Assembly (NCBI GenBank): GCA_017429265.1
Contig: JAFRPG010000105.1
Location: 1-64,000 of the forward strand
Direction: 5' to 3'
DNA length: 64,000 nucleotides
Origin: Clostridia bacterium
GTDB lineage: Bacteria; Bacillota; Clostridia; Christensenellales; Aristaeellaceae
The notes beneath the pieces are model-generated. The model searched no databases and was not told where the DNA came from. It worked only from the letters and a program-made list of their open reading frames with translations. Every line of letters starts with the position of its first letter. Position 1 is the first letter of the stretch. This document shows, one piece after another, positions 3,201 to 59,500 of the stretch. Made by a program: the position numbers and the translations under genes.

Positions 3201-3583
3201 AACACGAGGGTCGGATGCGCGTCCGACAGAACGATCTCCGTCAGGTTTTTGCAATCGGAGAAGGGGTTGATCCCGATCTCCTCCACGCAGTCCGGGATCG
3301 TGATCCGGTGGAAGTCACAGCTGTGCTCATACTTTGTATACAAGCCGGTGGAGAACGCAAAGTCACCGATGCGCGTCACGGGGATCCCGTCCAGTGTCTC
3401 CGGGATCACGAGATCCTCCGCCGCTCCTGCGTACCTGGCGATCTCCGCGCTCCCGTCCCCGCGGATGACATACTCGAAATCCCCGCATGTGAGCATCTCC
3501 GGTTCCGTATCCTCCGCCACGGCCGCGCAGAATGCCAGCAGCGCCGCGATGAGCAGCCATACGGCCAGTCTTGCCTTCTTCAT
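236..3583 (-). CDS. Secreted BspA-type leucine-rich-repeat protein (LRR_5), 1115 aa
   Basis: The ATG at 3583 (MKKARLAVW...) is preferred over upstream in-frame starts because AGAAGGGAAG lies just ahead and a signal peptide follows (basic MKKAR, hydrophobic core, AVAED). The rest is dozens of ~23-residue LRR_5 units of the type 'F..C.SL..V.LP.GL..IG..AF', as in Treponema/Bacteroides BspA surface proteins. Two blocks start with a 'DGYPVTAI' style linker (near residues 75 and 780), so the protein may be two repeat solenoids joined by a spacer. No LPXTG, C-terminal membrane helix or dockerin is seen, so the anchoring mode is unknown. BspA relatives bind host or matrix proteins; no ligand is claimed here. 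It follows the GH3 gene in the same direction, separated by that gene's terminator. Confidence 0.85.
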   Translation of the reverse strand: MKKARLAVWLLIAALLAFCAAVAEDTEPEMLTCGDFEYVIRGDGSAEIARYAGAAEDLVIPETLDGIPVTRIGDFAFSTGLYTKYEHSCDFHRITIPDCVEEIGINPFSDCKNLTEIVLSDAHPTLVFRSGALYDRRDGALILVLRAMCGSEFSVPEGVTEIRRNAFAYCEKLARVVIPEGVTELRNRTFAACMNLQEVILPDSLRVIGEAAFISCRNMKRIDLPEGLEELGDEVFRWCNALERVTLPDSLKSIGSFTFIHCTNLRELEIPAGVERIGAGFLYGCTALGQVTLSPGNPVLALTDGVLIRTDEKRIVSATPLFSAETYTVPEDIVSIESYAFANLDGLKHVTISESVTQVGSGVFRGCKSLTEASLSAGIGTVPDDMFTNCESLRAVTIPEGITAIGDSAFYNCKSLETVRLPEGLTAVHANAFSVCENLRTVEFPSTLSELGTDAFSRCASLETVSLPDALQEIPKNAFASCRALRKAEIPDGIRRIGENAFRSCGLQSVTLPDSVTEIGSGAFSGCGSLESVRLPAGLTVIADSLFSHCTGLRDITFPTADTVIGDYAFLDCGLTSLDLPENVTALGVQAFRSCENLLRVTVSSRLSEIAPAAFAECRKLLSVTLPSGLTGIGQQAFHSCTSLISVRVPDSVMEIGDGAFYRCAALSYLILPAGVTEFGENMLFGADSVTVVADRDSEAERYCTENRLQYAYTDVFDLGLIKDPPMVSGRYQYEILEDGGVRITRYAGRGGDVTIPDMLDGYPVTAIAAGAFSDTGITGVVIPDSVTSLPEGAFDSCYRLAHVTLPKGLTEIPDRAFSACSLESVVLPAGVTRIGSEAFWSNEEMKTVSIPDGVKEIGDRAFEYCRALEAVSLPDGLTSLGEGAFAFCDSLKTFTLPGGIGSVPPDTFRGKSLESVILCEGITAIESLAFDSCDSLVSVTLPSTLEILGGDAFYSCEALTSVELPMSLSFIGYNPFSACTALREIILPEGHPHFEVEDGLLYGKDTRTLICCPSMRPGEVITIREGTESIGRCAFVSALNAVSVRIPGSVKMIGSYAFQNCIRLESLTVPSSVEQIGYLVFYRCPLLVMTVEKDSYAESFCVREGIRFTVAAAE

Positions 3584-38654: not shown

Positions 38655-40019
38655 TTGGCACTCTTTGGGAACAGAAACAACCCACAGCCGTCGATCGTTC
38701 ATCGCACGCTGGATGCGTTCTCCGTGGATGTCATCCAGTGGGAGCCGAAAAACGACGCCGAAGCGTCCGTCATCGCCCACAAGTTTGAGACCGAGGACTT
38801 TCCGTCCGGATCGCAGCTCATCGTCGGCCCCGCCCAGATGGCTGTCTTTGTCAACAACCTGACGGCAGGCAACTCTCTGAACGAACCCGACGGCGGCAAC
38901 GCTCAGATGGCGGTCTTTATCGGTCCTTGCAGAATCAAGCTGGAAACCGGCGAGACGCGCTTTGCCCCGTTCCGCAGCCTGGCCCATGCTCTCACCCGCG
39001 GCGATTCGGCTTACCACAGCACCGTATATTTCATCAATACGACCTTCATGAACGAGCTCAACTGGGGCACTACGGCGCCCATCGTCGTGGAGGATCCCAA
39101 GGAAGAAGTCAACGTACACGTCCGTGCCTTCGGCCTTTTCGGCGCACACATCGAGCACACGGACACGAGCATCGCGGCCGTTCAGGCGCTCAGATTCCTT
39201 CGTAAAGTCGTCGGTACCCGTGCCGATTATACCCGTGATGAACTGATCGGCTTCATGCGTGCCAAGATCCTCGAATACGTGCCGACCCTTCTGGCCGGGA
39301 GCGTGGTCGACCGCCAGATTTCCGTGCTCGAGATCAGCACTAAGCTCTCCGAGTTCTCCGACGAACTGAAGAATAAGCTCACCCCATATTTCGATCAGTT
39401 CGGCCTCACGCTGGACAATTTCTCCTTCCACAGCATCAATGTTCCGGAGGAGGACATCGCCGCGATCAATGAGATGAAGATCGAGCGCAAGCGCCTCCAG
39501 AAGGAAGCCGAGGGGAAGGCGATGGCCATGGATATCGAGTCCGAGGCGATCTCCCGCAAGCGTGAGCGCGAAGGCTACACCTATCAGCAGGAACAGGCCT
39601 ACAACGTCCTCGGTCAGGCTGCCTCCAACGAGGGCACGGCCGGGAGTATCATGGGCACCGGTCTTGGCCTTGGCATGGGGGCCGGCGTAGGTGTTGCCAT
39701 CGGCGGCGGTATGGGAGCGCTTGCCCAGAACATGATACCTCAGGCCCCGCCGTCGGGATCCGGACAGGCGGGCACCGTTCCCTGCCCCGCCTGCGGGAAG
39801 CCCGTGCCTAAGGGTGCAAAGTTCTGCATGGAGTGCGGCACGAAAATGCCGGCCGCTCCCGTCTGTGCCAGATGCGGTTATCAGCTTCCGCCCAACGCGA
39901 AATTCTGTCCGGAGTGCGGCGCTCCCGTGGCTCCGCCCGCTCCTTCCGTTTGCCCAAAGTGCGGCAAGCCCGTGACCCCCGGTGCAAAGTTCTGCATGGA
40001 ATGCGGCGCAACCCTGTAA
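38655..40019 (+). CDS. SPFH-domain protein with three C-terminal zinc ribbons, 454 aa
   Basis: An SPFH (stomatin/prohibitin/flotillin-type) core covers about residues 20-250 of the virion-core/YdjI-like branch; a charged helical segment (270-310) and a Gly-rich hydrophobic hinge (331-358) follow. The tail has three near-identical zinc ribbons (377-394, 404-421, 433-450), each CxxCG...GAKFCxECG-like. No signal peptide; the hinge or partners may hold it at the membrane. TTG start at 38655 with AAAGGAGG 9 bp ahead. First gene of a five-gene operon. SPFH proteins scaffold membrane microdomains; a role here in membrane stress or protein quality control is inference. Confidence 0.85.
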   Translation: MALFGNRNNPQPSIVHRTLDAFSVDVIQWEPKNDAEASVIAHKFETEDFPSGSQLIVGPAQMAVFVNNLTAGNSLNEPDGGNAQMAVFIGPCRIKLETGETRFAPFRSLAHALTRGDSAYHSTVYFINTTFMNELNWGTTAPIVVEDPKEEVNVHVRAFGLFGAHIEHTDTSIAAVQALRFLRKVVGTRADYTRDELIGFMRAKILEYVPTLLAGSVVDRQISVLEISTKLSEFSDELKNKLTPYFDQFGLTLDNFSFHSINVPEEDIAAINEMKIERKRLQKEAEGKAMAMDIESEAISRKREREGYTYQQEQAYNVLGQAASNEGTAGSIMGTGLGLGMGAGVGVAIGGGMGALAQNMIPQAPPSGSGQAGTVPCPACGKPVPKGAKFCMECGTKMPAAPVCARCGYQLPPNAKFCPECGAPVAPPAPSVCPKCGKPVTPGAKFCMECGATL

Positions 40020-40037
40020 GCGAAGGAGGTACAACCC

Positions 40038-40748
40038 ATGAAAAGGATCTGGAAACCGCTGCTGATAATCGGCTGCATCCTCTTTGTTGTCTGGCTGGTT
40101 GTTTATCTGGCCCTCTGCTCCTTCAATTTCGAGAAGGGCAGTCCTGTCGTGATGCTCAGTCTGATCTTCGGTGTGCTCGCCTTTATTCTGACCGCCGTTT
40201 CCCTGTCCGTCACCGGTCTGAACGACATCCGGAACGACGAGGCCTACGCGCTGATGCCGCTGGTGCTGTGCGGGACCTCCCTGACTGTCTCCCTGGTTTT
40301 CAACGCTGTCATCATGCTGGTGGCAAAGGCCAACCCCGATGTGCCCAGATGGCTGATCATCCTAGACATCGCTGCCAACGTCGTCATTCTCGGCTTTGCG
40401 GCCATCGACATGGTCTACGCCATCGCACACATCGGCCGCGTCAGCATCCAGACAGCACAGCTAAGTGACATGCAGTCCAATCCCCTGGGGTTCTCTGCCC
40501 AGCTTGGCAAGCTCCTTGGCATGGCAGGCTCGCCCAAGGTGAAAGCTGCCCTGCTCAGCCTGAAGGAAACCGTCGACATGTCGAGCAACACGACCACGAC
40601 GAACAGCTCCATCCGCGAAAAAGCCTTCGGAGATGCTCTGACCAATCTTGAAAGCAAGCTCATCTGCGGCGCTCCGGAGGACGAGGTCTGCGAACTGGCT
40701 GACACGGCACGCAGAATGTGGCTGGCCCGCAATGCCGTCAGGGGGTGA
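40038..40748 (+). CDS. Four-helix membrane protein of unknown function, 236 aa
   Basis: Hydrophobic helices at about 7-30, 41-62, 74-97 and 104-130, then a soluble tail of ~100 residues with 'SSNTTTTNSSIREKAFGDALTNLESKLI' and 'GAPEDEVCELADTARRMWLARNAV'. No family recognised. ATG at 40038 with GAAGGAGGT, 18 bp after the SPFH gene; 2 bp before the next gene. Probably the membrane partner of the SPFH protein. Confidence 0.8.
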   Translation: MKRIWKPLLIIGCILFVVWLVVYLALCSFNFEKGSPVVMLSLIFGVLAFILTAVSLSVTGLNDIRNDEAYALMPLVLCGTSLTVSLVFNAVIMLVAKANPDVPRWLIILDIAANVVILGFAAIDMVYAIAHIGRVSIQTAQLSDMQSNPLGFSAQLGKLLGMAGSPKVKAALLSLKETVDMSSNTTTTNSSIREKAFGDALTNLESKLICGAPEDEVCELADTARRMWLARNAVRG

Positions 40749-40750
40749 GG

Positions 40751-41569
40751 ATGATGCCCGCCACGGACAGCGGAATGCAATGCGGAGGCTGCGGCTCCGT
40801 GAACGTCACCTTCGATCCCCAACGACGGATGCTGGTGTGCAACCAGTGCGGCCGAGAGGAGTATTACAGCCGCGCGAGCCTGTGCAAAAACAGCAAGGTT
40901 GCCTTCTGTCAGCACAACGCCAAGCAGTTTTTCGCCGACGGCCAGTATGAGATGGCAGAACGTTTTGCGCATGACACGATCAACATCATGCTCGACAACA
41001 CGCCCGCCCTCTACATCATTGCCTTCTACGACGAGTTCACCCGCGGCCGGAACAATGCGCTCAGGGACTTCTTCGCGAAGGTGGCCGACACTCCGCTTGA
41101 ATACGAGGAGGTCACCGACCTGATGGATCTCTTCCTCAGCGCGCCCGGCAGTCTCGGCGAATATGAGCCTCAGGTGATCACGGTTGCTGCCACCAATATG
41201 CAGGATGAGCGCGATGCAGCCCGGCTCTGCGAATTCATCGACAAGCTCTGCCCCTATCTGATCGCCCGGCGTCCGTCCATCAACTACATGACAGAGGAGC
41301 TCGCGGACATGTACCGGGAGCTTGCCGAACACTGCGGCGTCCCGCGGACCTGCTTTGCCCTGCTGAAAGCCATCCGTGAAAACCCCGATTCCCCTTACCG
41401 CGACAATTCTTTCTATCTCAAAGAGCGTTCCTCCTACTTCTATGAGCACTTCGTCGTCCCGATCGGCAAGGTGATCATGGCGATGGCGGAGATCCCGGAG
41501 AAAGATAAGTTTGTCCGCGCCTACCGGAAGTATGCGGAGCAGTACAGGCAGGACGCCCAGATCAGTTGA
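40751..41569 (+). CDS. Zinc-ribbon helical protein of unknown function, 272 aa
   Basis: A single N-terminal zinc ribbon ('MQCGGCGSVNVTF...MLVCNQCGREEYY', about residues 9-36) precedes an all-helical body with TPR-like character ('AERFAHDTINIMLDNTPALYIIAFYDEFTRG'). No catalytic motif seen. Starts at ATG 40751 (or 40754) right after GGGGGTGAGG, 2 bp past the previous stop, so translation is coupled. The zinc ribbon echoes those of the SPFH protein, which suggests both act in one complex. Confidence 0.78.
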   Translation: MMPATDSGMQCGGCGSVNVTFDPQRRMLVCNQCGREEYYSRASLCKNSKVAFCQHNAKQFFADGQYEMAERFAHDTINIMLDNTPALYIIAFYDEFTRGRNNALRDFFAKVADTPLEYEEVTDLMDLFLSAPGSLGEYEPQVITVAATNMQDERDAARLCEFIDKLCPYLIARRPSINYMTEELADMYRELAEHCGVPRTCFALLKAIRENPDSPYRDNSFYLKERSSYFYEHFVVPIGKVIMAMAEIPEKDKFVRAYRKYAEQYRQDAQIS

Positions 41570-41586
41570 AAGAGAGTTGATTTTCC

Positions 41587-43251
41587 ATGTCTGAAGCCAC
41601 GATTCTCAACCGGGTCAACCAAATCGGCAGCGAAGTCAGTGCCCTGAGCAATCAGGTCGGCAGCCTGAGCACGCAAACCAACCGCATCGATAGCAATGTC
41701 AGTGCCATGCGGCAGGAACTCGACCAGCTTCGCACCGATTTCCAGAAGCTGATGCAGGAGCAGCAGCGCTCTGCCGCCCTTCAGCGCGCCATCAGTGAGC
41801 TGGTCCGCGTCCGCCAGGAGATCAGCGACAAGTACGGCAACTATACCGTTGTGCGGCAGACCATGCTCGGCGTGCTGCAGGCCACCGACGTCGCCCTGGT
41901 CAAGAAGTCTACGATCTCCCGTGTCTCCGAGGAGCTCATGCTCTCCACGCCGCAGTACTGGCTCGCGCCATGCCTCGTGGCAGTCTCCGGCTGGATCGCC
42001 AACGACCGCAGCCTGGCCGAGCGTGCCATCGCTGAAGCCATGCGCCGCGATTCCGAAAAGACCGCCCTTGCCATGGCACTGATCTGCCGCCGCAACGGCC
42101 GCATCGACACGGGCTTTGAATGGCTGAGCATCTACTTCTCCAAGCAGAGCGCCGCCAGCATCACCGAGGAAACCTTCACCTACATCGACGCCTATATCAA
42201 CGGCGTGTTCGGTCCTGATGAGAAGCATCGCTGTCAGGGATACATCACCAAGTGGATCGACGAGATCAGGAACAGCGACTCCGGCTTTGAAGAAGCGCAG
42301 GAATCCAAGTGGGAATCCTACTTCAGCACCTATAAGGTCGACACGCGGCCCAGCTTCCCCTTCCTATCAACTGTCAAGGAATTCCCCCAGATCGATAAAT
42401 GCATCGGCGGCCTGAGCTCCTTCGGCACCGTGCGCGGTACCTTCCGGGAGATCTCCGAGGCTTTTATCGACCAGGAGGAAATGAAAAAGACCGTCGATAA
42501 GGAGCTGATCCACCTGATCAGCAACTACGACAAGGCAGAGGTCGAGATCCGCCGTGAGGAGGAGTATCTGCAGCTGGTCAAATCCCTCAACGGCGACGAA
42601 GCGGCGGCCCGCAGTGAAATGGTGCGCCGCGAAGCCCTGCGGCAACAGAAAAAGATGGACTTCATCGAACAGATGGCCGCCGAGATCACCGCCCAGCGCG
42701 AAGGTTCCCCGTCCAAACGCCGTACGGCCGTCACCTTCCTGAGCAACTATATCAACCGGGGCTATGACCGCTACATCGCGAGTGCAAGGGAGTCCTTCCC
42801 CAAGCAGATCACGATCGACGTGAACGGCTGGAGCGGTGTTTCGACCGATGGCAGCGAGGCCGCAGCCCTGACCGCCAGCTATGAGCAGGCGATCAACAGC
42901 CGCCGCCAGGAGGAGATCCACAGGACCTTCACCAGGAAACCACTGCTCATGCTGATCTTTGCCATCATCTTCGTGGTGCTGGGAGCGGCGGGTGTCGGCG
43001 TCGGCCTTGCCATAGCCCGGACTCTGGTCACCGTGCTCGGCGGCGTATTTGTTCTGACCGGCATCGGGCTCTTTATCGGCAGGATCTCCCTGAGCCGCAA
43101 GTCTCGCTGGGTCCAGTATCAGCTGAACAATGACTTCGACACGCAGATCGAGGAGGGTCGCCAGCGGATCGGAGGCGTTCTCACCGAATGGCGCACAGCC
43201 CGCAGCACCATCAAAGCCTTCGATGAGAACGGTGATCACAAAGTTGCATAA
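41587..43251 (+). CDS. Coiled-coil protein with two C-terminal membrane helices, 554 aa
   Basis: The N-terminus is a heptad coiled coil (about 5-80, repeated 'IGSEVSALSNQVGSLSTQTN' type). A helical middle (90-340) follows, a second charged coil (310-380) and two hydrophobic helices at about 453-475 and 480-500, ending in a short basic tail. No known domain recognised. Could be a tethered scaffold. ATG at 41587, 17 bp after the previous gene, fourth in the SPFH operon. Confidence 0.75.
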   Translation: MSEATILNRVNQIGSEVSALSNQVGSLSTQTNRIDSNVSAMRQELDQLRTDFQKLMQEQQRSAALQRAISELVRVRQEISDKYGNYTVVRQTMLGVLQATDVALVKKSTISRVSEELMLSTPQYWLAPCLVAVSGWIANDRSLAERAIAEAMRRDSEKTALAMALICRRNGRIDTGFEWLSIYFSKQSAASITEETFTYIDAYINGVFGPDEKHRCQGYITKWIDEIRNSDSGFEEAQESKWESYFSTYKVDTRPSFPFLSTVKEFPQIDKCIGGLSSFGTVRGTFREISEAFIDQEEMKKTVDKELIHLISNYDKAEVEIRREEEYLQLVKSLNGDEAAARSEMVRREALRQQKKMDFIEQMAAEITAQREGSPSKRRTAVTFLSNYINRGYDRYIASARESFPKQITIDVNGWSGVSTDGSEAAALTASYEQAINSRRQEEIHRTFTRKPLLMLIFAIIFVVLGAAGVGVGLAIARTLVTVLGGVFVLTGIGLFIGRISLSRKSRWVQYQLNNDFDTQIEEGRQRIGGVLTEWRTARSTIKAFDENGDHKVA

Positions 43252-43263
43252 GGAGGAAGAACC

Positions 43264-43443
43264 ATGACGGAAAACAATATGCATACTATGGACGAACCGG
43301 ACGATCTGGACGAACTGGAAAGCCTGTTCGGAACCCCTGAGAGCGAACTGGAACAGGCCGAGAAGATCGAGCTGACTCAAAATCTCGAGGGCTTTGCCAG
43401 CTGTTTCCCGGACTGGGATCTCCATCCGCCGCTTAAATACTGA
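43264..43443 (+). CDS. Small acidic protein closing the SPFH operon, 59 aa
   Basis: ATG at 43264 follows AAGGAGGAAGAACC, a perfect ribosome site 12 bp after the previous stop. The protein starts MTENNMHTMDEPDDLDELES, is rich in Asp and Glu, and ends 'FPDWDLHPPLKY'. No Cys or membrane segment. It is below usual gene-calling length but its position between gene 4 and the terminator, and its strong ribosome site, make it real. A regulatory or adaptor peptide for the operon is a guess. Confidence 0.75.
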   Translation: MTENNMHTMDEPDDLDELESLFGTPESELEQAEKIELTQNLEGFASCFPDWDLHPPLKY

Positions 43444-43465
43444 TTGCCGGGCATAATAAACAACA

Positions 43466-43504
43466 CCGCCGGAGCGATGTGATTCGCTCCGGCGGCGCTT
43501 TTTG
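43466..43504. terminator. Bidirectional terminator between the SPFH operon and fba
   Basis: Perfect 11-bp stem CGCCGGAGCGA (43467-43477) / TCGCTCCGGCG (43484-43494), loop of 6. Rightward it is followed by GCGCTTTTTG; leftward by GTGTTGTTTATT. Confidence 0.9.
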
Positions 43505-43552
43505 TCCGAATCGGTTCCGCTGATCCCGTCATTCGGCGGGGTCTTTCTTGGC

Positions 43553-44518
43553 TCAGGCCTTTCCGTTGCAGCCCAGGACGTCCACGATCTTGTGGCGGAC
43601 CATGGCGCGGATGGCATTGCGGGCGTCGGTCAGGTACTGACGGGGATCGAAGTGGTCTGGATGCGCATAGAAATGCTCACGCACCGCGCTGGTGAAGGCC
43701 AGGCGCAGGTCGGAGTCGATGTTGATCTTGCAGACGGCCATGGTCGCGGCCTTGCGCAGCTGCTCTTCCGGGATGCCCACAGCGTCGGGCATCTTGCCGC
43801 CGTTGGCGTTGATCGTCTTCACGAACTCCTGCGGGACGCTGGACGCGCCGTGCAGCACGATCGGGAAGCCGGGCAGGCGCTTGGAGACCTCTTCCAGAAC
43901 GTCGAAGCGCAGGGGCGGGGGCACCAGGATGCCTTCCTCGTTGCGGGTGCACTGCTCGGCGGTGAACTTGTACGCGCCGTGGCTGGTGCCGATGGCGATG
44001 GCCAGGGAGTCGCAGCCCGTGCGGGTGACGAACTCTTCCACTTCTTCGGGATGGGTGTAGGAGGAATCCTCGGCGGACACCTTCACGTCGTCCTCGACGC
44101 CGGCCAGGGTGCCGAGCTCGGCCTCGACCACCACGCCGTGGTCATGCGCATACTCGACGACCTGACGGGTGATCTTGATGTTCTCCTCAAAGGGCAGGCC
44201 GCTCTTGTCGATCATAACGGAGGAGAAGCCGCCGTCGATGCAGCTCTTGCAGGTCTCAAAGTCGGGGCCGTGATCCAGATGGACCGCGATCGGCAGATCG
44301 GTGTCCGCCACGGCGGCCTCGATCATCTTCATCAGGTACACATGCTTCGCATACTTGCGGGCGCCGGCGGAAACCTGCAGGATCAGAGGAGCCTGCTCCT
44401 CCTTCGCGGCTTCGGTGATACCCTGGATGATCTCCATGTTGTTGACGTTGAACGCACCGATGGCATATCCGCCTTCATAGGCCTTGCGGAACATTTCGGT
44501 CGTGGTGACGATGGCCAT
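43553..44518 (-). CDS. fba: Class II fructose-bisphosphate aldolase, 321 aa
   Basis: Zinc-dependent cleavage of fructose-1,6-bisphosphate in glycolysis. 'GAFNVNNMEIIQGI' (start), zinc/catalytic 'PIAVHLDHGPDFETC' near residue 80, 'EAELGTLAGVEDD' near 132, 'IGTSHGAYKF' and 'IVLHGASSVP' with later His ligands. Full length. ATG at 44518 after AAAGGAGGGG. Own promoter (44551-44579). Confidence 0.97.
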   Translation of the reverse strand: MAIVTTTEMFRKAYEGGYAIGAFNVNNMEIIQGITEAAKEEQAPLILQVSAGARKYAKHVYLMKMIEAAVADTDLPIAVHLDHGPDFETCKSCIDGGFSSVMIDKSGLPFEENIKITRQVVEYAHDHGVVVEAELGTLAGVEDDVKVSAEDSSYTHPEEVEEFVTRTGCDSLAIAIGTSHGAYKFTAEQCTRNEEGILVPPPLRFDVLEEVSKRLPGFPIVLHGASSVPQEFVKTINANGGKMPDAVGIPEEQLRKAATMAVCKINIDSDLRLAFTSAVREHFYAHPDHFDPRQYLTDARNAIRAMVRHKIVDVLGCNGKA

Positions 44519-44550
44519 GGGAAACCCCTCCTTTTTGTTTCGGTAAGTCG

Positions 44551-44579
44551 ATTATAACACAAGAAGACGCAGATGAAAA
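44551..44579 (-). promoter_or_regulatory. Promoter of fba
   Basis: Read leftward: TTTTCA (44574-44579), 17 bp, TATAAT (44551-44556). Confidence 0.6.
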
Positions 44580-44594
44580 GAGGTTTTGACGAAT

Positions 44595-45338
44595 TCAGCG
44601 GAAGGTTCCGCCCAGCTGCTCCGCAAAGACGACGGGATCGATGAAGCCGAAGCGCGCCTTGCGCAGCGGATCGCGGGGATAGACAACATCGAGAGTCGGG
44701 CCTCCGGGCAGCTCGCCGCGAACCGCCACCTCGTTGACCGGCAGCAGGGAGAGCACGTCGCGCGCGCAGCGGAGGGCCAAGCCGGCAAGGAGGCGGTGCT
44801 CCTCGACGCGGTCGGTGTCATCGCCGAGCGCTATGGCGGTGAAGCCGACCTCCGCGCGGTCGCTGCCCGCGGCGCGTACGGTCACCGACTCCGCGTACCG
44901 GCGCAGATCCGCCAGCGGATCGGCAAAGCGGAGCACCTCCGCGTAAGCCGACGTGTCGCCGCTGAGCACCTTCTTTGCGCGCTCATGCAGGAAATGCCAG
45001 ACCTCGGGAGCCGTCTCGCCGTCGTTGGGCTCCGCATGGGTCAGGACTTCCGTCCAGTCCACACGCTCGTCCGCCCGGCGCCAGTACTCCTCAAAGGGCG
45101 GGATCTGCGGCTCCTCGGGCTTCGTCTCCTCCTGAGGAGGCTCCGGCGCGGGCCGTACCGGCAGTCCGAAGGCGCCGGTCTGGACCGGCCTGGACGCGGG
45201 GTCGGCGGGCTTGCTCTCCGCCTTCGGGTTTCCGGTTGCGTTCACGGCATTGAGGAAGGAAGGCCGTTTGTCCGCTGGCCACAGATCGCTGCAGATCTGA
45301 TAGAGCATGTCAAGCGGGTTCGTGCTCTTCTCGCTCAT
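44595..45338 (-). CDS. Protein of unknown function paired with the AAA+ ATPase, 247 aa
   Basis: The first ~90 residues are Pro/Glu-rich and probably disordered ('PVRPAPEPPQEETKPEEPQI'), followed by a compact alpha/beta part (about 95-247). No family recognised. Its ATG (45338) overlaps the stop of the AAA+ gene by 4 bp (ATGA), so expression is tied to it and an adaptor or substrate-selector role is inferred. No Cys cluster, signal peptide or membrane helix. Confidence 0.75.
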   Translation of the reverse strand: MSEKSTNPLDMLYQICSDLWPADKRPSFLNAVNATGNPKAESKPADPASRPVQTGAFGLPVRPAPEPPQEETKPEEPQIPPFEEYWRRADERVDWTEVLTHAEPNDGETAPEVWHFLHERAKKVLSGDTSAYAEVLRFADPLADLRRYAESVTVRAAGSDRAEVGFTAIALGDDTDRVEEHRLLAGLALRCARDVLSLLPVNEVAVRGELPGGPTLDVVYPRDPLRKARFGFIDPVVFAEQLGGTFR

Positions 45339-47227
45339 GCGTTCTCCCTCCCCTCGGTGTCGGTCGTACAGGTCAGCTCCGGCGGATTGGCGCTCACCTC
45401 AAAGTGGGCGATCGTCACGTCCGCGTTCCCGAGAACCTCGTGGTCAAACAGCCAGCGGGACAGCGGGTTGATCAGCAGGCTCTCCACCTGGTTGCCGATG
45501 CCGCGGCCGCCGTTGGACAGGTCCGCCAGCGCCGCCGCGCGCAGTTCGTCATAAGCTTCGTCCGTCACCTTCAGGCGGATCTGCTTCTGCTCCTGCATGC
45601 GCCGGATGATCTTGTTCACCTGGGCCTGCAGGATCGCCTCGCCCGCCTCCTCGCGGATGTAGTCGAAGACGACGATGTTCTCGCCGATGCGGTTGAGGAT
45701 CTCGGGCCGCCCGAGCTCCAGCTTGAAGTGGTCCTCGATCGCGCCGCGAACGCGCGTCTGGACCTCCTCGTAGGGCATGTCCATGGTCACGTTGGCGTGG
45801 CGCTGACCCATGGCGTCCTTGACATAGATGCCGAGGTTGCTGGTGAAGATGATGATCGTCTCGCCGAAATAGACCGTGTTGCCCTGGCCGTCGGTCATGC
45901 GCCCGTCCTCGAGGATCTGCAGGAACTTGTCGAGGATGTTGGTATGCGCCTTCTCGATCTCGTCGAAAAGCAGGATGCAGAACGGGTTGTTCTTGATCGC
46001 ATTGGTCAGCTGACCGCCGGCTTCATAACCGACGTAGCCGGGCGGTGCGCCCATCAGCTTCTGGTCGGAATGGCTCTGGCCGTATTCGCTCATATCAAAG
46101 CGCACGCAGGCGCTCTCGTCGCCGAAGAGTTTCTCGGCCAGCGCCTTGGCTGTCTCGGTCTTGCCGACGCCGGTGGGACCCGCGTAGAAGAGGACGCCCT
46201 TGGGCTTGGAGGTGGAGGAGGAGGACAGGCCGTTCATGCCCGTCACGGCGCGCTTGACCACGTCGAGCGTCCGCTCGAGCGCGGCGTCCTGGCCCTTGAT
46301 CCGCTTCTGGAAGTCCTCCTTGGCCGTCTTCAGGCTCGCCATCGACAGGCGCTCCCAGGGATTGTCCTTGAAGCCGTACTTGTACAGATCCACCACCTTG
46401 CACAGGTCGCGGATCGCGGTCAGTTCCTGCTTGCCGAGGGTGCGCAGGGCGTCAAGCTCGGTGAAGGTCAGGCCCTCGGTGAGGCCGACAAACTTCTCCT
46501 GCAGCTTGCTCAGCTCGTCGGGGTGATCCAGGTACCAGGGCATATCCGTGCGGTAGACCGCGCCGTCGAAGAAGGTGGCGAAGCGGTTTTCGATCAGGCG
46601 CATGCGCTCCTCGCGGTCCGGCGCCTCGAGCGTGATCGCCCGGCAGGCCGGATTGTTGAGGTAGAACCAGGCGGGAAGGTCATTGCGCTTGTTGACCAGC
46701 ACGATCATCAGGTTCCGCCGCTTCCCCATCGGCGTGCGGACCGAAGCCGCCGACAGCGCCGCCTGAAGCAGGCGGTTGAAGCTGTTCACATCCTGCTGAT
46801 CCATGCGATCCGGGGAGGTGATGTAGAAGCTGGCCAGCTCCAGGATCGTCACCGTCGCGGTCTCCTGCTGCGTCATGGCGCGGAAGATCACGTTGGGCGC
46901 GGTGGTCGCGCCGTTGCCCCGCAGTTCCGCCGGGATCACGCCGTTCTTCAGCTCCGCCCTAGCCGCTTTCGCGTAGGTCCGGAGCATCTCCGCGTCATAG
47001 GGGTTGGTCAGGCCGGTCAGGTTGGAATAGAAGGCCACCGACTGCCAGCCCTGGTCGCGGAAGTAGCCCATCAGATAGCGGGGCAGAGGCACGAGTTCGT
47101 CCTCCCCCACGGACCCGGCCACGGGATAGCGGTACTTGTCGGAGATGTTGCCCTCGAGGATCAGCATCGGTTTGACGGTCGAGAACAGTTCGAGTTCCCG
47201 ATGCCATTTGGAGATCAGGGGTTCCAT
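45335..47227 (-). CDS. AAA+ ATPase: P-loop-less N-terminal AAA module plus ClpB-D2-like module, 630 aa
   Basis: The C-terminal half is a ClpA/ClpB second-ring ATPase: Walker A GPTGVGKT with Lys356, 'MSEYGQSHSDQKLMGAPPGYVG' substrate loop, Walker B 'CILLFDEIEKAH' (Asp422-Glu423), sensor 'FTSNLG', arginine finger 'GRPEILNRIG' and a C-terminal D2-small domain. The first half (about 1-270, 'KPMLILEGNISDKYRYP', 'TVTILELASF', 'MIVLVNKRNDLPAWF') is AAA-like but has no Walker A. No Clp N-domain, M-domain or ClpP loop (IGF) was seen, so unfolding without proteolysis is inferred. ATG at 47227; weakly spaced AAAGGC site. Third gene after psuK-psuG. Confidence 0.85.
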   Translation of the reverse strand: MEPLISKWHRELELFSTVKPMLILEGNISDKYRYPVAGSVGEDELVPLPRYLMGYFRDQGWQSVAFYSNLTGLTNPYDAEMLRTYAKAARAELKNGVIPAELRGNGATTAPNVIFRAMTQQETATVTILELASFYITSPDRMDQQDVNSFNRLLQAALSAASVRTPMGKRRNLMIVLVNKRNDLPAWFYLNNPACRAITLEAPDREERMRLIENRFATFFDGAVYRTDMPWYLDHPDELSKLQEKFVGLTEGLTFTELDALRTLGKQELTAIRDLCKVVDLYKYGFKDNPWERLSMASLKTAKEDFQKRIKGQDAALERTLDVVKRAVTGMNGLSSSSTSKPKGVLFYAGPTGVGKTETAKALAEKLFGDESACVRFDMSEYGQSHSDQKLMGAPPGYVGYEAGGQLTNAIKNNPFCILLFDEIEKAHTNILDKFLQILEDGRMTDGQGNTVYFGETIIIFTSNLGIYVKDAMGQRHANVTMDMPYEEVQTRVRGAIEDHFKLELGRPEILNRIGENIVVFDYIREEAGEAILQAQVNKIIRRMQEQKQIRLKVTDEAYDELRAAALADLSNGGRGIGNQVESLLINPLSRWLFDHEVLGNADVTIAHFEVSANPPELTCTTDTEGRENA

Positions 47228-47251
47228 CGGCAGCGCCTGCCTTTCTTGTCG

Positions 47252-48190
47252 TCAGTCTTCGGGAGCCGCCATGGCCTTCGCGACCTCGGCGCCCAGGGCT
47301 GCGTTGTTGTAGACCAGCTGAATGTTCGCCTCCAGGCTCGCGCCGCCGGTCAGCTTCTGGATCTTATCCAGCAGGAAAGGCGTGATCGCCTTGCCGCGGA
47401 TGCCCTTCTCCTCGCACTCCTTCAGCGCGGCGTCGATGTTCGCGTTGATGTAGTCCAGATCCATCGCGTACTGCGGCGGGATCGGGTTGGTCAGCAGCAT
47501 GCCGCCCCGGAGCCCGCAGGCTTGCTTCGCGCGGAAGGCCGCGGCGATCTCGGCGGGCGTGTCCATGCGGTAGTCCACCTGGAAGCCGGAGTGCGTGGTG
47601 TAGAAGGCGGGCATCTCCTTCGTCTGATAGCCGAGGACCGGGACGCCCTTCGTCTCGAGATACTCCAGGGTCAGGCCGATGTCGAGGATGGACTTGCAGC
47701 CCGCGCAGACGACCAGGACCGGCGTCATGGCCAGCTCCTCCAGGTCGGCGGAGATGTCCATGGTGGTCTCCGCCCCGCGATGGACGCCGCCGATGCCGCC
47801 GGTGGCGAACACTTTCACGCCGGCGAGCGCCGCCGCGATCATCGTGGTGGTGACCGTCGTGGCCCCGTCCTCGCCGCGGGCAAGCAGGACCGGCAGGTCG
47901 CGGCGGCTGGCCTTCGGCACGTCAAGGCCGCGTTTGCCGAGGTATTCGATCTGCTCCGGCGTGCAGCCGACGGTCATCCTGCCCCGAATGATCGCGATGG
48001 TGGCCGGGACCGCGCCGTGCTCCCGGATGATCCGCTCCACGTTCAGCGCGGTTTCCACATTCTTCGGGTAGGGCATGCCGTGGGAGATGATGGTCGACTC
48101 CAGGGCGACCACCGGCCTGCCGCTGTCCAGCGCGTCCCGCACCTCCGGCGAGACGGAGAGATACCGCTTCAGATCCTCTGTATGATTCAT
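47252..48190 (-). CDS. psuG: Pseudouridine-5'-phosphate glycosidase, 312 aa
   Basis: Splits pseudouridine-5'-phosphate to uracil and ribose-5-phosphate in RNA salvage. Family signatures 'VALESTIISHGMPYPKN' near residue 28, 'GGIGGVHRGAETTMDISADL' near 131, and 'LGYQTKEMPAFY'. Full length. ATG at 48190 with AGGAGGAATCAC. Follows psuK by 37 bp, the standard psuK-psuG pair; 24 bp before the AAA+ gene. Confidence 0.97.
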   Translation of the reverse strand: MNHTEDLKRYLSVSPEVRDALDSGRPVVALESTIISHGMPYPKNVETALNVERIIREHGAVPATIAIIRGRMTVGCTPEQIEYLGKRGLDVPKASRRDLPVLLARGEDGATTVTTTMIAAALAGVKVFATGGIGGVHRGAETTMDISADLEELAMTPVLVVCAGCKSILDIGLTLEYLETKGVPVLGYQTKEMPAFYTTHSGFQVDYRMDTPAEIAAAFRAKQACGLRGGMLLTNPIPPQYAMDLDYINANIDAALKECEEKGIRGKAITPFLLDKIQKLTGGASLEANIQLVYNNAALGAEVAKAMAAPED

Positions 48191-48227
48191 CGTGATTCCT
48201 CCTGTATTCTGTCTTCCGGCGGGCGGA

Positions 48228-49133
48228 TCAGCGCGCCCGCCCGAGCACCTTCTGCCAGGTCATGTCCGGGTTGACCGCAGCCCGGGATTCGGCGCACAGC
48301 GCGGCGGCGGCCTGACCCATCCGTGCCATGGTGCGGGTGTCCATCCCCTCGAGCATCGCGATCAGGCAGGCCGCGAAGAACGCATCCCCGCAGCCGTTCG
48401 TGCTGACGACCTGCCGCGGGCGCGGCTTCTCCTGCCCGCTGGCTTCGGCATCCGCGTACCAGACCCCCTGCTCGCCAAGGGAGATCATCACACGCCGGAC
48501 CCCCAGGCCGAGCAGGGCGGATGCGGCGACCCGTGCCTCCTCCGGGGTGCCCACCGGCCTTCCGGAGAGCTCGGCGGCTTCCGCGCGGTTGGGCTTGATG
48601 AGGGTCAGGCGGGGCAGGGCGTCCCAAAGCTTCCCCGCCTTGCGGACGGAGACCGGGTCCGCTGCGAGCGGCACCCTGCACTGCTCCGCGAGGAAGCGGA
48701 TGCTCTCCTCCGGCAGGTTGGCGTCGATCACGGCCGCGTCAAAGCTGTTGATGAGGTCGAGGCGTCCGCGCAGGAAATCGGGCGTCACGCAGTCGCAGAC
48801 CCGCATGTCCGAGACCGCGCAGTGCAGCTCACCCTGATCATCGTTGAGGCACAGATAGCTGCCTGTGGGCATGCCGGTGATCTCCGCCGAGGCGCTCATG
48901 TCGATGCCGATGCCCTCGCACTCGGAACGGGCCCACAGACCGTTCCGGTCATCGCCCAGGGCGGTGATGAGGCTCACACCGGCTCCCAGCCGGACCAGGT
49001 TCTCCGCGATGTTCCGCCCGACGCCGCCCAGGGACAGGCTCACATGGCCGGGATTGGAATCGTGTGGGATCAGTTTCGCGGCGGTTTGTCCGGTGATATC
49101 GACGTTCAGGCCGCCGATGACACAGATCTTCAT
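48228..49133 (-). CDS. psuK: Pseudouridine kinase (PfkB family), 301 aa
   Basis: Phosphorylates pseudouridine at O5'. Ribokinase-fold landmarks: 'SLSLGGVGRNIAENLVRLG' (about 33-51), and the C-terminal anion-hole motif 'VSTNGCGDAFFAACL' with catalytic Asp near 250. Assignment to PsuK rests on the adjacent psuG. ATG at 49133 is preferred (GAGAGGAGGGG ahead); the upstream frame crosses the promoter. Heads psuK-psuG-AAA-partner from the promoter at 49156-49184. Confidence 0.93.
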   Translation of the reverse strand: MKICVIGGLNVDITGQTAAKLIPHDSNPGHVSLSLGGVGRNIAENLVRLGAGVSLITALGDDRNGLWARSECEGIGIDMSASAEITGMPTGSYLCLNDDQGELHCAVSDMRVCDCVTPDFLRGRLDLINSFDAAVIDANLPEESIRFLAEQCRVPLAADPVSVRKAGKLWDALPRLTLIKPNRAEAAELSGRPVGTPEEARVAASALLGLGVRRVMISLGEQGVWYADAEASGQEKPRPRQVVSTNGCGDAFFAACLIAMLEGMDTRTMARMGQAAAALCAESRAAVNPDMTWQKVLGRAR

Positions 49134-49155
49134 GGGGTCCCCTCCTCTCCCCGGT

Positions 49156-49184
49156 ATTATAAACCGCGGGGCACGCATCGTCAA
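49156..49184 (-). promoter_or_regulatory. Promoter of psuK-psuG-AAA+-partner
   Basis: Read leftward: TTGACG (49179-49184), 17 bp, TATAAT (49156-49161). Confidence 0.8.
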
Positions 49185-49233
49185 GCGCACCGCAGGCAAA
49201 CGCCCGCGCACTTTTTGACATGTGTCCGGCGCA

Positions 49234-49266
49234 GAAAAACTCCCGTACCCATCACGGGCACGGGAG
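49234..49266 (-). terminator. Terminator of groES-groEL
   Basis: Stem CTCCCGT-(A)CCC (49240-49250) / GGGC-ACGGGAG (49256-49266), leftward followed by five T. Confidence 0.85.
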
Positions 49267-49284
49267 CAGAGTATTCCGGGTCGA

Positions 49285-50934
<1,650 letters not shown>

Positions 50935-50954
50935 TCAGCTCCTTGTCTTTACTG

Positions 50955-51239
50955 TCACTCGACAACCGCGAGGATGTCACTCTGGCGGACGATGATCAGC
51001 TCGTCGCCGTCGATCTTCACTTCGGTGCCTGCATACTTGGAATAGATGACCTTCTGGCCGGGCTTGACCTGCATGGTGATCTCCTTGCCGTCCACCATGC
51101 CGCCGGGGCCGACCGCCAGCACTTCCGCCATCTGCGGCTTTTCCTTGGCTGCGCTGGTCAGGATCAGACCGCCCTTGGTGGTCTCTTCCGCCTCTACGTT
51201 CTTGATGACCACCCGGTCAAACAAAGGCTTAACTGTCAT
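50955..51239 (-). CDS. groES: Co-chaperonin GroES, 94 aa
   Basis: Heptameric lid of GroEL. 'TVKPLFDRVVIKNVEAEETTKGGLILTSAA' (mobile loop) and the C-terminal 'GDELIIVRQSDILAVVE' fit GroES exactly. The ATG at 51239 (AGGAGGGACTCGAA ahead) is used; the frame extends upstream into the CIRCE region without support. Followed 26 bp later by groEL. Confidence 0.99.
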   Translation of the reverse strand: MTVKPLFDRVVIKNVEAEETTKGGLILTSAAKEKPQMAEVLAVGPGGMVDGKEITMQVKPGQKVIYSKYAGTEVKIDGDELIIVRQSDILAVVE

Positions 51240-51265
51240 TTCGAGTCCCTCCTGTACTGGACTTG

Positions 51266-51292
51266 TTAGCACTCGTCTTTGTTGAGTGCTAA
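51266..51292. promoter_or_regulatory. CIRCE operator (HrcA binding site)
   Basis: Perfect TTAGCACTC-N9-GAGTGCTAA (51266-51274 and 51284-51292), between the groESL promoter and the groES start, giving heat-shock control by HrcA. Confidence 0.97.
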
Positions 51293-51304
51293 CCTTCGTG
51301 GCAT

Positions 51305-51333
51305 ACTATACGACATTTTTGCGGAAATGGCAA
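51305..51333 (-). promoter_or_regulatory. Promoter of groES-groEL
   Basis: Read leftward: TTGCCA (51328-51333), 17 bp, TATAGT (51305-51310), directly upstream of the CIRCE. Confidence 0.8.
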
Positions 51334-51409
51334 GAGGGAAAAGCATGTTTTTTCAGAAAATCTGTGCTTTTTCAGAGATTCCTTTCATTTGTCATGATGC
51401 AAGGCAGAT

Positions 51410-51441
51410 AAAACCGCCATGCACGGTCCGGGCATGACGGT
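51410..51441 (-). terminator. Terminator of the K+ channel gene
   Basis: Stem ACCGCCATGC (51413-51422) / GCATGACGGT (51432-51441) with one mismatch; leftward followed by TTTTATC. Confidence 0.7.
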
Positions 51442-51488
51442 GAAGATCATCGGCTGCAGAGCGGAGTCGCACATATGACCCGGCCTAC

Positions 51489-52295
51489 CTATTCCAGCTT
51501 ATGTCCGCAGTAAGGGCAGTACTCCTTCCCATCCGATTCCTTGTCTCCTCCGCTTCGTTCATGGATCACGCTGGAAAACCCGGCGGCGATGATGCCGGTC
51601 GGGATGGCAATGATCCCAATCCCGATGACAGAGATAATCGAAGCAAAGAGTTTTCCCGTCGCCGTGACCGGGTAGACGTCACCGTAGCCGACCGTCGTCA
51701 GCGTGCAGATGGCCCACCACAGGCTGCTGATGACGTTCGGGAACTGCTCCGGCTGTTCAGGATTCTCAACCGTATACATCACAATAGCGGAAAACAGCAT
51801 GACGAACGCACACAGGATGATGGACACGACAAGCTGAGGCGCCGACTTGCGAATGACCTTCATCAGGAGCATGAACGCATCCAGATACCGGCCCAGCTTG
51901 AATACCCGCAGAAGCCGAAACAGACGCAGCAGACGCACCATCCGCAGGAACCGGAGGTCGAGTGGAATGAACGGAATGAAGAACGGCAGGATCGCCAGCA
52001 GGTCGATCACCGCCATGAACGACCTCATGTAACGCAGACGTGGATGCTTCGCGCCGGGATACAGCAGGTCAGCCGTCCAGATCCTCAGAGCATATTCGAC
52101 GGTAAAGACGGCAATGCTGATGCACTCAAAGATCCGGAAAGCCACGGCATAGTTTTGCGCCAGATTCCGATATGATTCCAGAATGATGGAGACGACCGAC
52201 AACACAATCAGGATCATGATGCAGTTGTCGAAAACTTTGCTTGCCCGGTCTCCCTCGTCCGCTTTGGAGATGATCGCAAATATCCGCTTTTTCAT
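51489..52295 (-). CDS. Voltage-gated potassium channel with C-terminal zinc ribbon, 268 aa
   Basis: Six-helix cation channel subunit (tetramer in the membrane). S1 to S3 about 22-105; S4 carries regularly spaced Arg ('RFLRMVRLLRLFRLLRVFK', about 115-133); selectivity filter 'TTVGYGD' near residue 206, K+ specific, and S6 'GIGIIAIPTGIIAAGF'. The last residues 'YCPYCGHKLE' are half of a zinc ribbon, an uncommon tail for such channels. ATG at 52295, GGGAGAGACGG ahead. Leftward, downstream of the TlpA-like gene but separated by an 18-bp palindrome. Confidence 0.92.
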   Translation of the reverse strand: MKKRIFAIISKADEGDRASKVFDNCIMILIVLSVVSIILESYRNLAQNYAVAFRIFECISIAVFTVEYALRIWTADLLYPGAKHPRLRYMRSFMAVIDLLAILPFFIPFIPLDLRFLRMVRLLRLFRLLRVFKLGRYLDAFMLLMKVIRKSAPQLVVSIILCAFVMLFSAIVMYTVENPEQPEQFPNVISSLWWAICTLTTVGYGDVYPVTATGKLFASIISVIGIGIIAIPTGIIAAGFSSVIHERSGGDKESDGKEYCPYCGHKLE

Positions 52296-56521: not shown

Positions 56522-59500
56522 TCAATACAGACGGTCGATGATCACGTTCGGGCATCCGTCGAAGGCTCCCGCGTCGATCGTTGTCACGCTGGCCGGGATA
56601 TACACATAGACCAGCTTTGTGCAGCCGGCAAAGGCCTGGCTGCCGATGGCGGTGCAGCTGTCCGGAATGATGACCGCCTGGAAGGTAAGCCCGGTAAAGG
56701 CTTCCGCGTCGATGATCTGCAAGCCGGTGGGCAGATGCATCACGGAAAGCGTGCCAAGCGCCGGGATGATGCCGCCGTCCTTGCGCTGAGGCGTGAAGGC
56801 CTCGTTTTCAAAGGCATCGCTGACGTATTCGTAGGCACCAGGCTCGGTGTCGGTCGGAGACAGGACGGCGGCGCGGGTCACCCTGACCGTCTCGCTGTCG
56901 GTGTGGGCCGCGTCGCGGGTGCAGACGCGGGAAGCCGTGACCGCTGTGTTGTCTTCGGACCAGGTGTAGGTGACCTCATCGCTCCAGACATGGCCCAGAG
57001 CGGGGGTCTCAGCCTGCGTCAGGAAGATTGTGCCGCAGACCTCGCAGTGGATTCCGCTGCTCAGGCCGGTGTGCTCACAGGTGGCGGGAACGGCTTCGTC
57101 GATCACATACACGTGCGGGAGCTTCTCCAGGGTCTCCTGCGGGATCAGGATCTCGCCGCAGCGCTCACAGTGACTGCCTTCCGTCAGACCGACAGTCGTG
57201 CAGGTGGGCTCCACGGCTTCGTCGGTGATAAGGATATGGCCCAGGGCCTCCACAGTCTCCTGCGGGACCAGGATCTCACCGCAGCGCCCGCAGTGGCTGC
57301 CCTCGGTGAGACCATGTTCCGTGCAGGCAGGCTCGACCGCTTCGTCGGTGACGGGGATATGGCCCAGGGCGGGGATCTCCACCTGTGCCTGGAAAACCTC
57401 GCCGCAGACGGCGCAGTGCACGCCGCTGGTCAGGCCGGCCGCCGTGCAGGTCGCGGGTACCGGGTCATCCGCCACGTAGGTGTGGGCCACCTTCGGCAGG
57501 ACTTCCTGTGCCGCAAGGGTCTCGCCGCACCGCTCGCAGTGGCTGCCCTCGGTGAGACCGATGGAGGTACAGGTGGGCCCGATCGCCTCGTCGGTCACCG
57601 GAATATGACCCAGCGCTTCGATGTCGGCCAGGGTGACGGTCTGTGCGGTGAATGCCTCGTTGTCGAAGGCTGCGCCGGTGTAGGTGGTCTCGCCGGGAAC
57701 GGTGCAGGTGGGCTCCAGCGTGATCTCGGCTGTCGCGGTGACGGTCTCCGTCTCCGCGTGATCCGCATCATGTGCGCAGACCCGGACGGCGGTGACCTCC
57801 GTATGGTCCTCGTTCCAGGTGTACACGGGTTCGCCCCAGTCATGGCCCAGGGCGGGAATATCCGTCAGGGTCTTGCTCTGCACCTCGAATGCCGGGTTCA
57901 CGAAGGCCGCGCCGGTGTAGGTGGTCTCGCCCATCTCCTTGCAAGAAGGCTGCAGCGTCACAGCCGCGGTTGCGGGGACGGTTTCCGTCTCCACGTGATC
58001 TTCGTCGTTCGCGCAGACGCGGGTCGCGGTCACCTCGGTGTTCCCCCCGTTCCATGTATAGGTGACCTCACCCCAGGCGTGACCCAGTGCGGGGACGATC
58101 TCCTGCGGCACCAGCACCTCGCCGCAGACAGCGCAGTGGCTGCCCTCGGTCAGGCCGGTTTCCTCGCAGGTGGGAGCGACGGCCTCATCCGTCACGGGGA
58201 CATGCTCGTCGCATTCGTCCACCACAAGGATGGTCACCGAATCGGACTTCCCGCTGCCGCCGGCCGTGATGGTCACCTCACCGGGTGCCACAGCGCGTAC
58301 CAGGCCGGACTCGGGGGTCACGATGGCAATGCTCTCATCGCTGCTGGTGAAAGTCACCAAATGGTTTTCCAGCACGTCGCCCCGGGTGGGCGTGACGGCG
58401 GCAGTGAGCTGCATCTGACGGCCTACGATGATCCGGTCCTGCGGTGCTGTGAGTTCCACGGTCTTCACCGGGTAGCACAGGTGGATCACGGCGGTGCGCT
58501 TGATGCCTCGCTCACTGACGGCGGTGATGGTCACATCCCCCGGCTTGGCGGTGGTGACCAGGCCATCGCCGTTCACGGTGGCCAGGTTGGTGTCGGAACT
58601 CTCAAAGCGCAGGGTGACCTCCGCGTCGGAGGGCTCCGGCCAGGCAGTCAGCCGGCAGGTCTCCGTGCGGGCCAGGATCCAGGCTCCCTCGGGAGAGAGG
58701 TTGACTTCGCCATCGGCCCGGTTGACGGTGAGTGTGAGGGTGAAGTCCGTCGCGGCCCGGTAAACGGTAACGGTCACGCTGTCCGTGGCCTGGTCACAGG
58801 TGGCTGTGACGGTCGCGGAGCCGGGCTGCAATCCGGTGATCACCCCGTCCTCCACGGTCAGGACGGCGGGATCGCTGCTGGTCCAGGTGACGGTGGGATC
58901 GTCATAGGTGGGGAAAACGTTGTAAGTCAGGGATCGCACATCCCCAGCGGCCAGGCGGAAATCCTCCTCCAGGGTCAGCTCACGGGCGTCGGAGGGAGAG
59001 ATCTCGTCCAGGTAGACGATGGGCAGCATCTCCCCGTCGGCCCAATAGTCCGCATCGGAGAAGTTATAGCAGTAGATGGTAGGGTTGGAGTTGACAATGT
59101 TGGAGCCGAAAGTATGCACGGATTCGGGGATCACCATCTTGGTGAGGCTGTAGCAGTTATAGAAGGCCTGATCACCGATGCTGGCCACGCCCTCCGGGAT
59201 GGTCACGGCGGTGAGCCCGTGGCAGTACCGGAACGCCTGATTGCCGATACCAATCACGCTGCCCGGGATCGTGATGCTCGTCAAGCCGCCGCAACTGGAG
59301 AAAGCACCGTTGCCGATGCCGGTGACGCTGTCTGGGATCGTGATGCTCGTAAGCCTGCTGCAACCAGAGAAAGCCTGTTCGCCAATGCTGGTCACGCTGG
59401 ACGGGATCGTCATGCTCGTCAGGCTGCTGCAGTTACAGAAAGTATAGTCACCGATACCAGTCACGCCGTCCGGAATCGTGATACTCGTCAGGCTGCTGCA

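Follow-up and report, generated by a model that had tools for sequence, protein, structure and literature searches.

An AAA+ ATPase gene is found directly downstream of psuK and psuG in a Clostridia bacterium of the family Aristaeellaceae, and it overlaps a small gene that follows it. Does this ATPase serve pseudouridine salvage, or does it form a unit of its own with the small partner? We addressed this question in a stretch of 64,000 nucleotides (contig JAFRPG010000105.1, here called the window) and in homologous loci from other genomes. The original prediction had left the choice between a fortuitous operon fusion and a link of the ATPase to RNA or protein turnover.

Organisation of the locus

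The genes lie on the minus strand in the order psuK, psuG, ATPase, partner and then fba. The features are as follows.

49156-49184, minus strand: sigma70-like promoter match (11/12) 5' of psuK, a consensus match only
48228-49133 (start uncertain, alternatively 49211), minus strand: psuK, PfkB-family kinase, neighbour only
47252-48190, minus strand: psuG, pseudouridine-5'-phosphate glycosidase, Indigoidine_A family (Pfam), neighbour only
45335-47227, minus strand: AAA+ ATPase, 630 amino acids, with a putative degenerate module (about residues 1-290) and a ClpB-D2-type module (about residues 296-608)
46358-47227, minus strand: N-terminal half of the ATPase (residues 1-290), AAA+-like order of strands and helices, P-loop replaced by GN(I/V)xD, sensor-1-like NDLPAW, no ATP-binding motif
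45398-46342, minus strand: D2-type catalytic module of the ATPase (residues 296-610), from Pfam/NCBIfam and motif alignment
45335-45338, minus strand: ATGA, 4 bp in which the ATPase gene ends and the partner gene begins
44595-45338, minus strand: partner, 247 amino acids, no family match in Pfam, NCBIfam or PADLOC

The common direction and close spacing described originally are real, with gaps of 37 bp between psuK and psuG and 24 bp between psuG and the ATPase gene, and the 4-bp overlap is an ATGA shared by the ATPase stop and the partner start. The top NCBIfam match of psuK is pseudouridine kinase, at a score under the cutoff. Because the promoter match sits upstream of psuK and the minus strand has no terminator-like site between this match and the partner, co-transcription from psuK to the partner is plausible in the species of the window. 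An Rfam scan of positions 43400-51500 gave no match.

The attachment to psuK-psuG is fortuitous

A motor that assists pseudouridine salvage, or the turnover of RNA-modifying enzymes, together with PsuK and PsuG could explain the 24-bp gap, the shared strand, the single promoter-like site 5' of psuK and the uninterrupted stretch behind it. Against this stands the survey of other neighbourhoods. Neither psuG nor psuK was found near the ATPase gene in any of 107 other fetched loci, some of which are one genome fetched twice. Within the genus psuG is present in 10 of 12 genomes, and in all eight other members with both genes it is located on a contig other than that of the ATPase. Directly upstream of the ATPase, 67 pair-type loci (those carrying ATPase and partner) show 18 different gene families, most commonly the small membrane protein f5 (20 loci), a VTC-domain gene (14) and family f7 (14). 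We therefore consider the attachment to psuK-psuG fortuitous and, as far as seen, confined to the species of the window, as the first of the two original explanations had it; a link to RNA or protein turnover finds no support in the survey, and a motor that assists PsuK and PsuG is extremely improbable. This result concerns the link only, since the same survey found the ATPase-partner pair itself conserved.

Some further observations were made on these neighbours. psuK lies directly upstream of psuG in 7 of 9 congener loci examined (L144-L152); it is only 48-54% identical between congeners, while the adjoining psuG is 85-90% identical, with 71% in L152. Of the 70 pair-type loci, 29 (L050 among them) have the pair behind an operon of a SNF2 helicase, a CotH/LTD protein, DUF4956 and a VTC-domain gene.

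ATPase and partner form a conserved unit

Searches of 150 family genomes found 25 with the ATPase and 25 with the partner, 24 of them having both; the exceptions are G048, with an ATPase of the operon type described below and no partner, and G007, with a DUF4236 fusion. The genome collection yielded 80 loci, 70 of them pair-type. The partner directly follows the ATPase in all 65 pair-type loci with room for it, with junctions from -17 to +42 bp, and the remaining 5 of the 70 end at a contig edge. The loci are not all independent, as L128 and L129 are near-identical, L177-L180 all belong to a single genus and some of the loci with G handles repeat named ones; where genes were called antisense (L032, L042, L155-L157), ATPase and partner were placed by tblastn. 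In the genus of the window the ATPase is present in 11 of 12 genomes, and the pair sits in lineage-stable places. The unit is thus ATPase plus partner, not psuKG.

Comparison of the window with L038, the nearest fetched relative, gave a dN/dS of about 0.13 for the whole ATPase, about 0.18 for its N half and about 0.07 for D2. Judged from the sequences, the recurrence of the pair is far beyond chance, because it is ordered in 65 of 65 loci and the ATPase has this low dN/dS; the ATPase, its predicted dead module included, is under purifying selection. In some lineages the unit may have a third member, the family f5 gene, which encodes a small hydrophobic protein and lies directly upstream in loci such as L040, L043 and L054.

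An intact D2 module of the HSP100 type

The second half of the ATPase is, as originally read, an intact ClpB-D2-like module, with lysine at residue 356 and Asp-Glu at 422-423. Pfam assigns AAA_2 to residues 342-514 (1.9e-47) and ClpB_D2-small to residues 526-605. The motifs comprise Walker A (K356), Walker B (D422-E423), the pore loop GYVG (397-400), sensor 1 (N464), the arginine finger (R513) and sensor 2 (GGR, 573-575), and all six are kept in 24 of 24 aligned family members. Profile searches of the PDB matched the ATPase to ClpB and ClpC at 1e-70 and better, near 1e-72. In the AlphaFold2 model, D2 superimposes on the C-terminal domain of ClpB with Z 26.4 and an rmsd of 3.3 over 296 residues (VIA-align). 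The two Pfam domains together with the Walker motifs, sensors, arginine finger and GYVG loop place the protein among the HSP100 ATPases.

The original prediction had suggested a search for a ClpP-docking loop. No tripeptide of the form [LIVM]G[FL] is present in the catalytic module in any of 24 rows, the only similar sequence being LGM inside TSNLG in 5 of 24, while ClpC of the same genome, taken as control, carries the docking tripeptide LGF. Since the tripeptide is missing from the ATPase sequence, a partnership with ClpP was rejected and remodelling of proteins appears likelier than ClpP proteolysis.

A conserved, putatively degenerate first module without P-loop

The N-terminal half had been described as AAA-like without Walker A. 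The absence of a P-loop held throughout: none was found in residues 1-295 in any of 24 aligned rows or 42 family members, and 40 of the 42 have a GNxxD-type motif at its position. In 22 pair-type rows of alignment A2, 77 of 290 columns of the N half are invariant.

The AAA-like character is supported by the predicted structure and not by sequence profiles. We modelled the N half within the whole chain (AlphaFold2, mean pLDDT 82.8). The model shows strand 21-26, helix 48-58, strand 63-68, helix 110-119, strand 125-129, helix 144-158, hairpin 162-171, strands 173-178 and 195-200 and lid helices 205-284, the order of secondary structure of an AAA+ module. Structural searches (Foldseek/VIA-align) align the whole chain, residues 3-624, with D1-D2 of ClpB, ClpC and ClpA over 484-505 residues. 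The top rows have an rmsd of about 9-10, and Z is 26.7 for the full length versus 26.4 for D2 alone. Sequence comparisons were negative: residues 1-290 have no Pfam match, hhalign of the N half against D1 of ClpC and ClpB of the same genome, against its own D2 and against D2 of ClpC and ClpB gave probabilities of 0.1-0.7%, and profile searches of the PDB returned chance matches only (E 0.36 or worse). Homology to D1 by sequence was therefore not upheld. Because the profiles are negative and the full-length Z is no higher than that of D2, equivalence to D1 rests on topology; together with the sensor-1-like NDLPAW strand, the modelled topology supports the N half as a degenerate AAA+ module.

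Two further sequences were noted. A ClpB fragment at a contig end of the same genome (L003) has the D1 P-loop GEPGVGNT, with Asn replacing the Walker A Lys, which may be an assembly error. A congener copy of the ATPase (L140, G150:C19:7295-9172) contains one in-frame TGA, attributable to error, decay or recoding.

With ClpB, Hsp104 and Skd3 the ATPase shares a D2 module in which the ATPase and pore-loop motifs are complete, and Skd3, aligned over its nucleotide-binding domain, also functions with a single D2-type module. The window's ATPase differs in its first module without P-loop, in having no room for an M-domain and in its obligate small partner gene. Where ClpB has two ATP-binding modules the ATPase has one, and in the model there is no long insertion corresponding to the ClpB M-domain between the lid helices 205-284 and the start of D2 near 296; on the ClpB equivalog TIGR03346 it scores 263.7 bits, the cutoff being 1232.1. 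ClpC and ClpA resemble it in their tandem AAA+-like modules, seen in the structural alignment over residues 3-624, whereas it has neither the ClpP-docking tripeptide nor an active D1.

The partner protein

The model of the partner consists of an N-terminal helix with a conserved DLW (residues 18-20), a linker of low pLDDT, predicted to be disordered, and a confidently modelled alpha/beta domain of residues 82-247. The protein had been called Pro-rich, and this applies to residues 20-80 (14 of 61) but not to residues 81-247 (10 of 167). It evolves fast, with a dN/dS of about 0.42 between the window and L038. Foldseek found no match to its fold at E<=0.001, and the top VIA-align hit has Z 5.8 over 76 residues.

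A profile of the folded domain recognised the C-terminal part of DUF4236 proteins in L037, L128, L129 and L171, beside PP2C in the latter three. Some DUF4236 proteins (PF14020) thus bear the partner's folded domain at their C-terminus; they differ from the window's partner, which has the DLW helix and linker where they have DUF4236. In the phylum, a search with the partner alignment matched 4 of 299 genomes, two of which have no ATPase nearby; one of them (L194) carries the domain in a DUF4236-like protein, the other (L195) in a coiled-coil protein. A plasmid search with the partner gave no match.

Relatives in a kinase, phosphatase and radical-SAM operon

A search of the phylum with the N half matched 12 of 398 genomes. 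We collected 27 operon-type loci from Lachnospiraceae, other Bacillota, an Aristaeella lactis plasmid, Rhizobium, Caballeronia and Geminocystis. A NrdG-like radical-SAM gene lies on the same strand in 25 of the 27 and within 1.3 kb of the ATPase in 24; the window's pair does not adjoin such a gene, and the radical-SAM family f15 is not among the neighbours listed for pair-type loci, the window included. Other same-strand neighbours are a Ser/Thr kinase (19 loci), an FHA/zinc-ribbon protein (18), PP2C (15), a coiled-coil protein starting with MSGPK (10) and DUF4236 (4). Two short contigs, L136 and L137, show none of the usual neighbours. Only 3 of 150 family genomes have the MSGPK protein, and the genome of the window is not among them.

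A DUF4011-type helicase-nuclease is certain in 6 of the 27 (L128, L129, L185, L186, L187, L189), a count limited to loci with E=0.0 because the raw 19 of 27 is inflated by a kinase domain in the Rhizobium seed; in Rhizobium leguminosarum the helicase-nuclease is fused to a kinase domain. Such proteins are known from the anti-phage systems Hhe, ProA and PDC-S37, and none is encoded near the window's pair. Part of the operon-type relatives are on plasmids, in Aristaeella, Rhizobium and Caballeronia; that of A. lactis (G132, two contigs) measures 44,127 bp. Near the ATPase operon of L178 and L179 (genus g184) are genes that, by eye, we take to be type III CRISPR RAMP-like. All 18 pair-type rows fall on a single side of a branch (SH-aLRT 99) within the operon-type rows, in a quick tree with long branches whose four-row outgroup is not on one side of a branch. 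Whether the pair is nested in this way depends on where the root is placed.

Literature searches, within our library and with the terms used, yielded no description of the ATPase-partner pair or of the kinase/PP2C/FHA/radical-SAM operon. According to an excerpt of one report, DUF4011 and radical-SAM genes flank the Pseudomonas aeruginosa defence hotspot cDHS1 (PMC10250203), and the GAP1-N2 kinase/PP2C/vWA systems, as far as the excerpt of another describes them, differ from the ATPase operon (PMC7159879).

Alternative functions of the pair

The relatives on plasmids, some beside DUF4011 helicase-nucleases or CRISPR RAMP-like genes, bring anti-phage defence to mind. Dodola consists of DolA (DUF6414) and the ClpB-like DolB, and the window likewise has a ClpB-like ATPase next to a small gene; its D2 matches PADLOC DolB (79.9 bits) and PDC-M37B. 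A system of this kind would kill or arrest infected cells. Yet ClpC of the same genome outscores the ATPase on DolB with 94.8 bits, and because an ordinary ClpC scores higher the match is unspecific, which removes the sole direct pointer to Dodola. The partner, matching nothing in PADLOC or Pfam, has no DUF6414, and on these two grounds Dodola itself was rejected. The near-universal presence of the pair in the genus at lineage-stable places and the lack of any match of the N half in 50,697 phage records and in viral contigs also speak against defence, which we regard as unlikely for the window's pair, while a defence function of the plasmid-borne relatives is possible. A PHROGs search gave no significant match.

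It is equally doubtful that the ATPase acts as an unfoldase on a membrane client or in the service of some non-ClpP peptidase. Such a role would account for the small membrane protein f5, whose gene immediately precedes that of the ATPase, on the same strand, in 20 of 67 pair-type loci. But no peptidase is linked, f5 is missing next to the pair of the window and from 47 of the 67 loci, and where present it is separated from the ATPase gene by 66-283 bp. That the pair controls a contractile apparatus, type VI-like or of another kind, is very unlikely. Type VI secretion is controlled by ClpV with the PpkA-PppA-Fha pathway, comprising kinase, PP2C and FHA parts, and the relatives combine a ClpB-type ATPase with the same parts; however, that part of the neighbours which was scanned with profiles showed no family of sheath, tube or baseplate proteins, and the TssH/ClpV model covers the D2 part alone, at 221.9 bits against a cutoff of 884.95.

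A proposed remodelling motor and its adaptor

The data are explained most economically by an HSP100 remodelling motor in which one ring is active and which has an adaptor of its own. There is about an even chance, in our judgement, that the pair is such a remodelling motor and adaptor, domesticated from a larger phospho-regulated system. The ATPase would probably form a hexameric stack of rings in which the D2 ring alone hydrolyses ATP and its GYVG pore loops pull a client protein through. The first ring, its P-loop lost, may have been retained for structural support or as a docking site. The partner, coupled in its translation to the ATPase, would be the adaptor, its DLW helix and flexible linker probably binding the motor and its folded C-terminal domain recognising the client, or the reverse. 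Most likely the motor would disassemble or reshape a specific client complex and not feed ClpP.

The ancestral system presumably comprised a Ser/Thr kinase, PP2C, FHA and radical-SAM proteins, to which a DUF4011 helicase-nuclease and a partner fused to DUF4236 were added in some cases. If evolution went in this direction, the kinase, phosphatase, FHA and radical-SAM genes were lost and Aristaeellaceae retained the pair as a chromosomal, vertically inherited unit. More tentatively, the window could hold what domestication has left of an unnamed HSP100 system, phospho-regulated and linked to a radical-SAM protein. This system would occur in Bacillota, Pseudomonadota and possibly Cyanobacteria, in part on plasmids and in part together with a DUF4011 helicase-nuclease. 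Its ring with a dead first module and its DUF4236/partner proteins might be a conflict or stress machine, of which Aristaeellaceae kept motor and partner domain as a core housekeeping pair. A housekeeping role is argued for by the near-universal presence of the pair in the genus and its stable places.

These data would define a subfamily of HSP100 motors whose first ATPase module is dead yet conserved and whose partner is obligate, tie it to a kinase-phosphatase-FHA-radical-SAM operon and link some uncharacterised DUF4236 proteins to a motor. The pair also offers a testable case of a probable conflict-system motor that has become a core gene.

Other genes in the window

A cluster on the plus strand at 38655-43443 encodes an SPFH/band-7 protein that carries zinc ribbons at its C-terminus, along with a membrane protein, a zinc-ribbon protein and a coiled-coil protein; the other fetched loci contain no homologue of any of them. 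On the minus strand, at 56522-62410 and 236-3583, lie genes for giant BspA-type proteins with LRR_5 repeats, of 1962 and 1115 amino acids, and the 1962-residue protein also has Big_2 domains.
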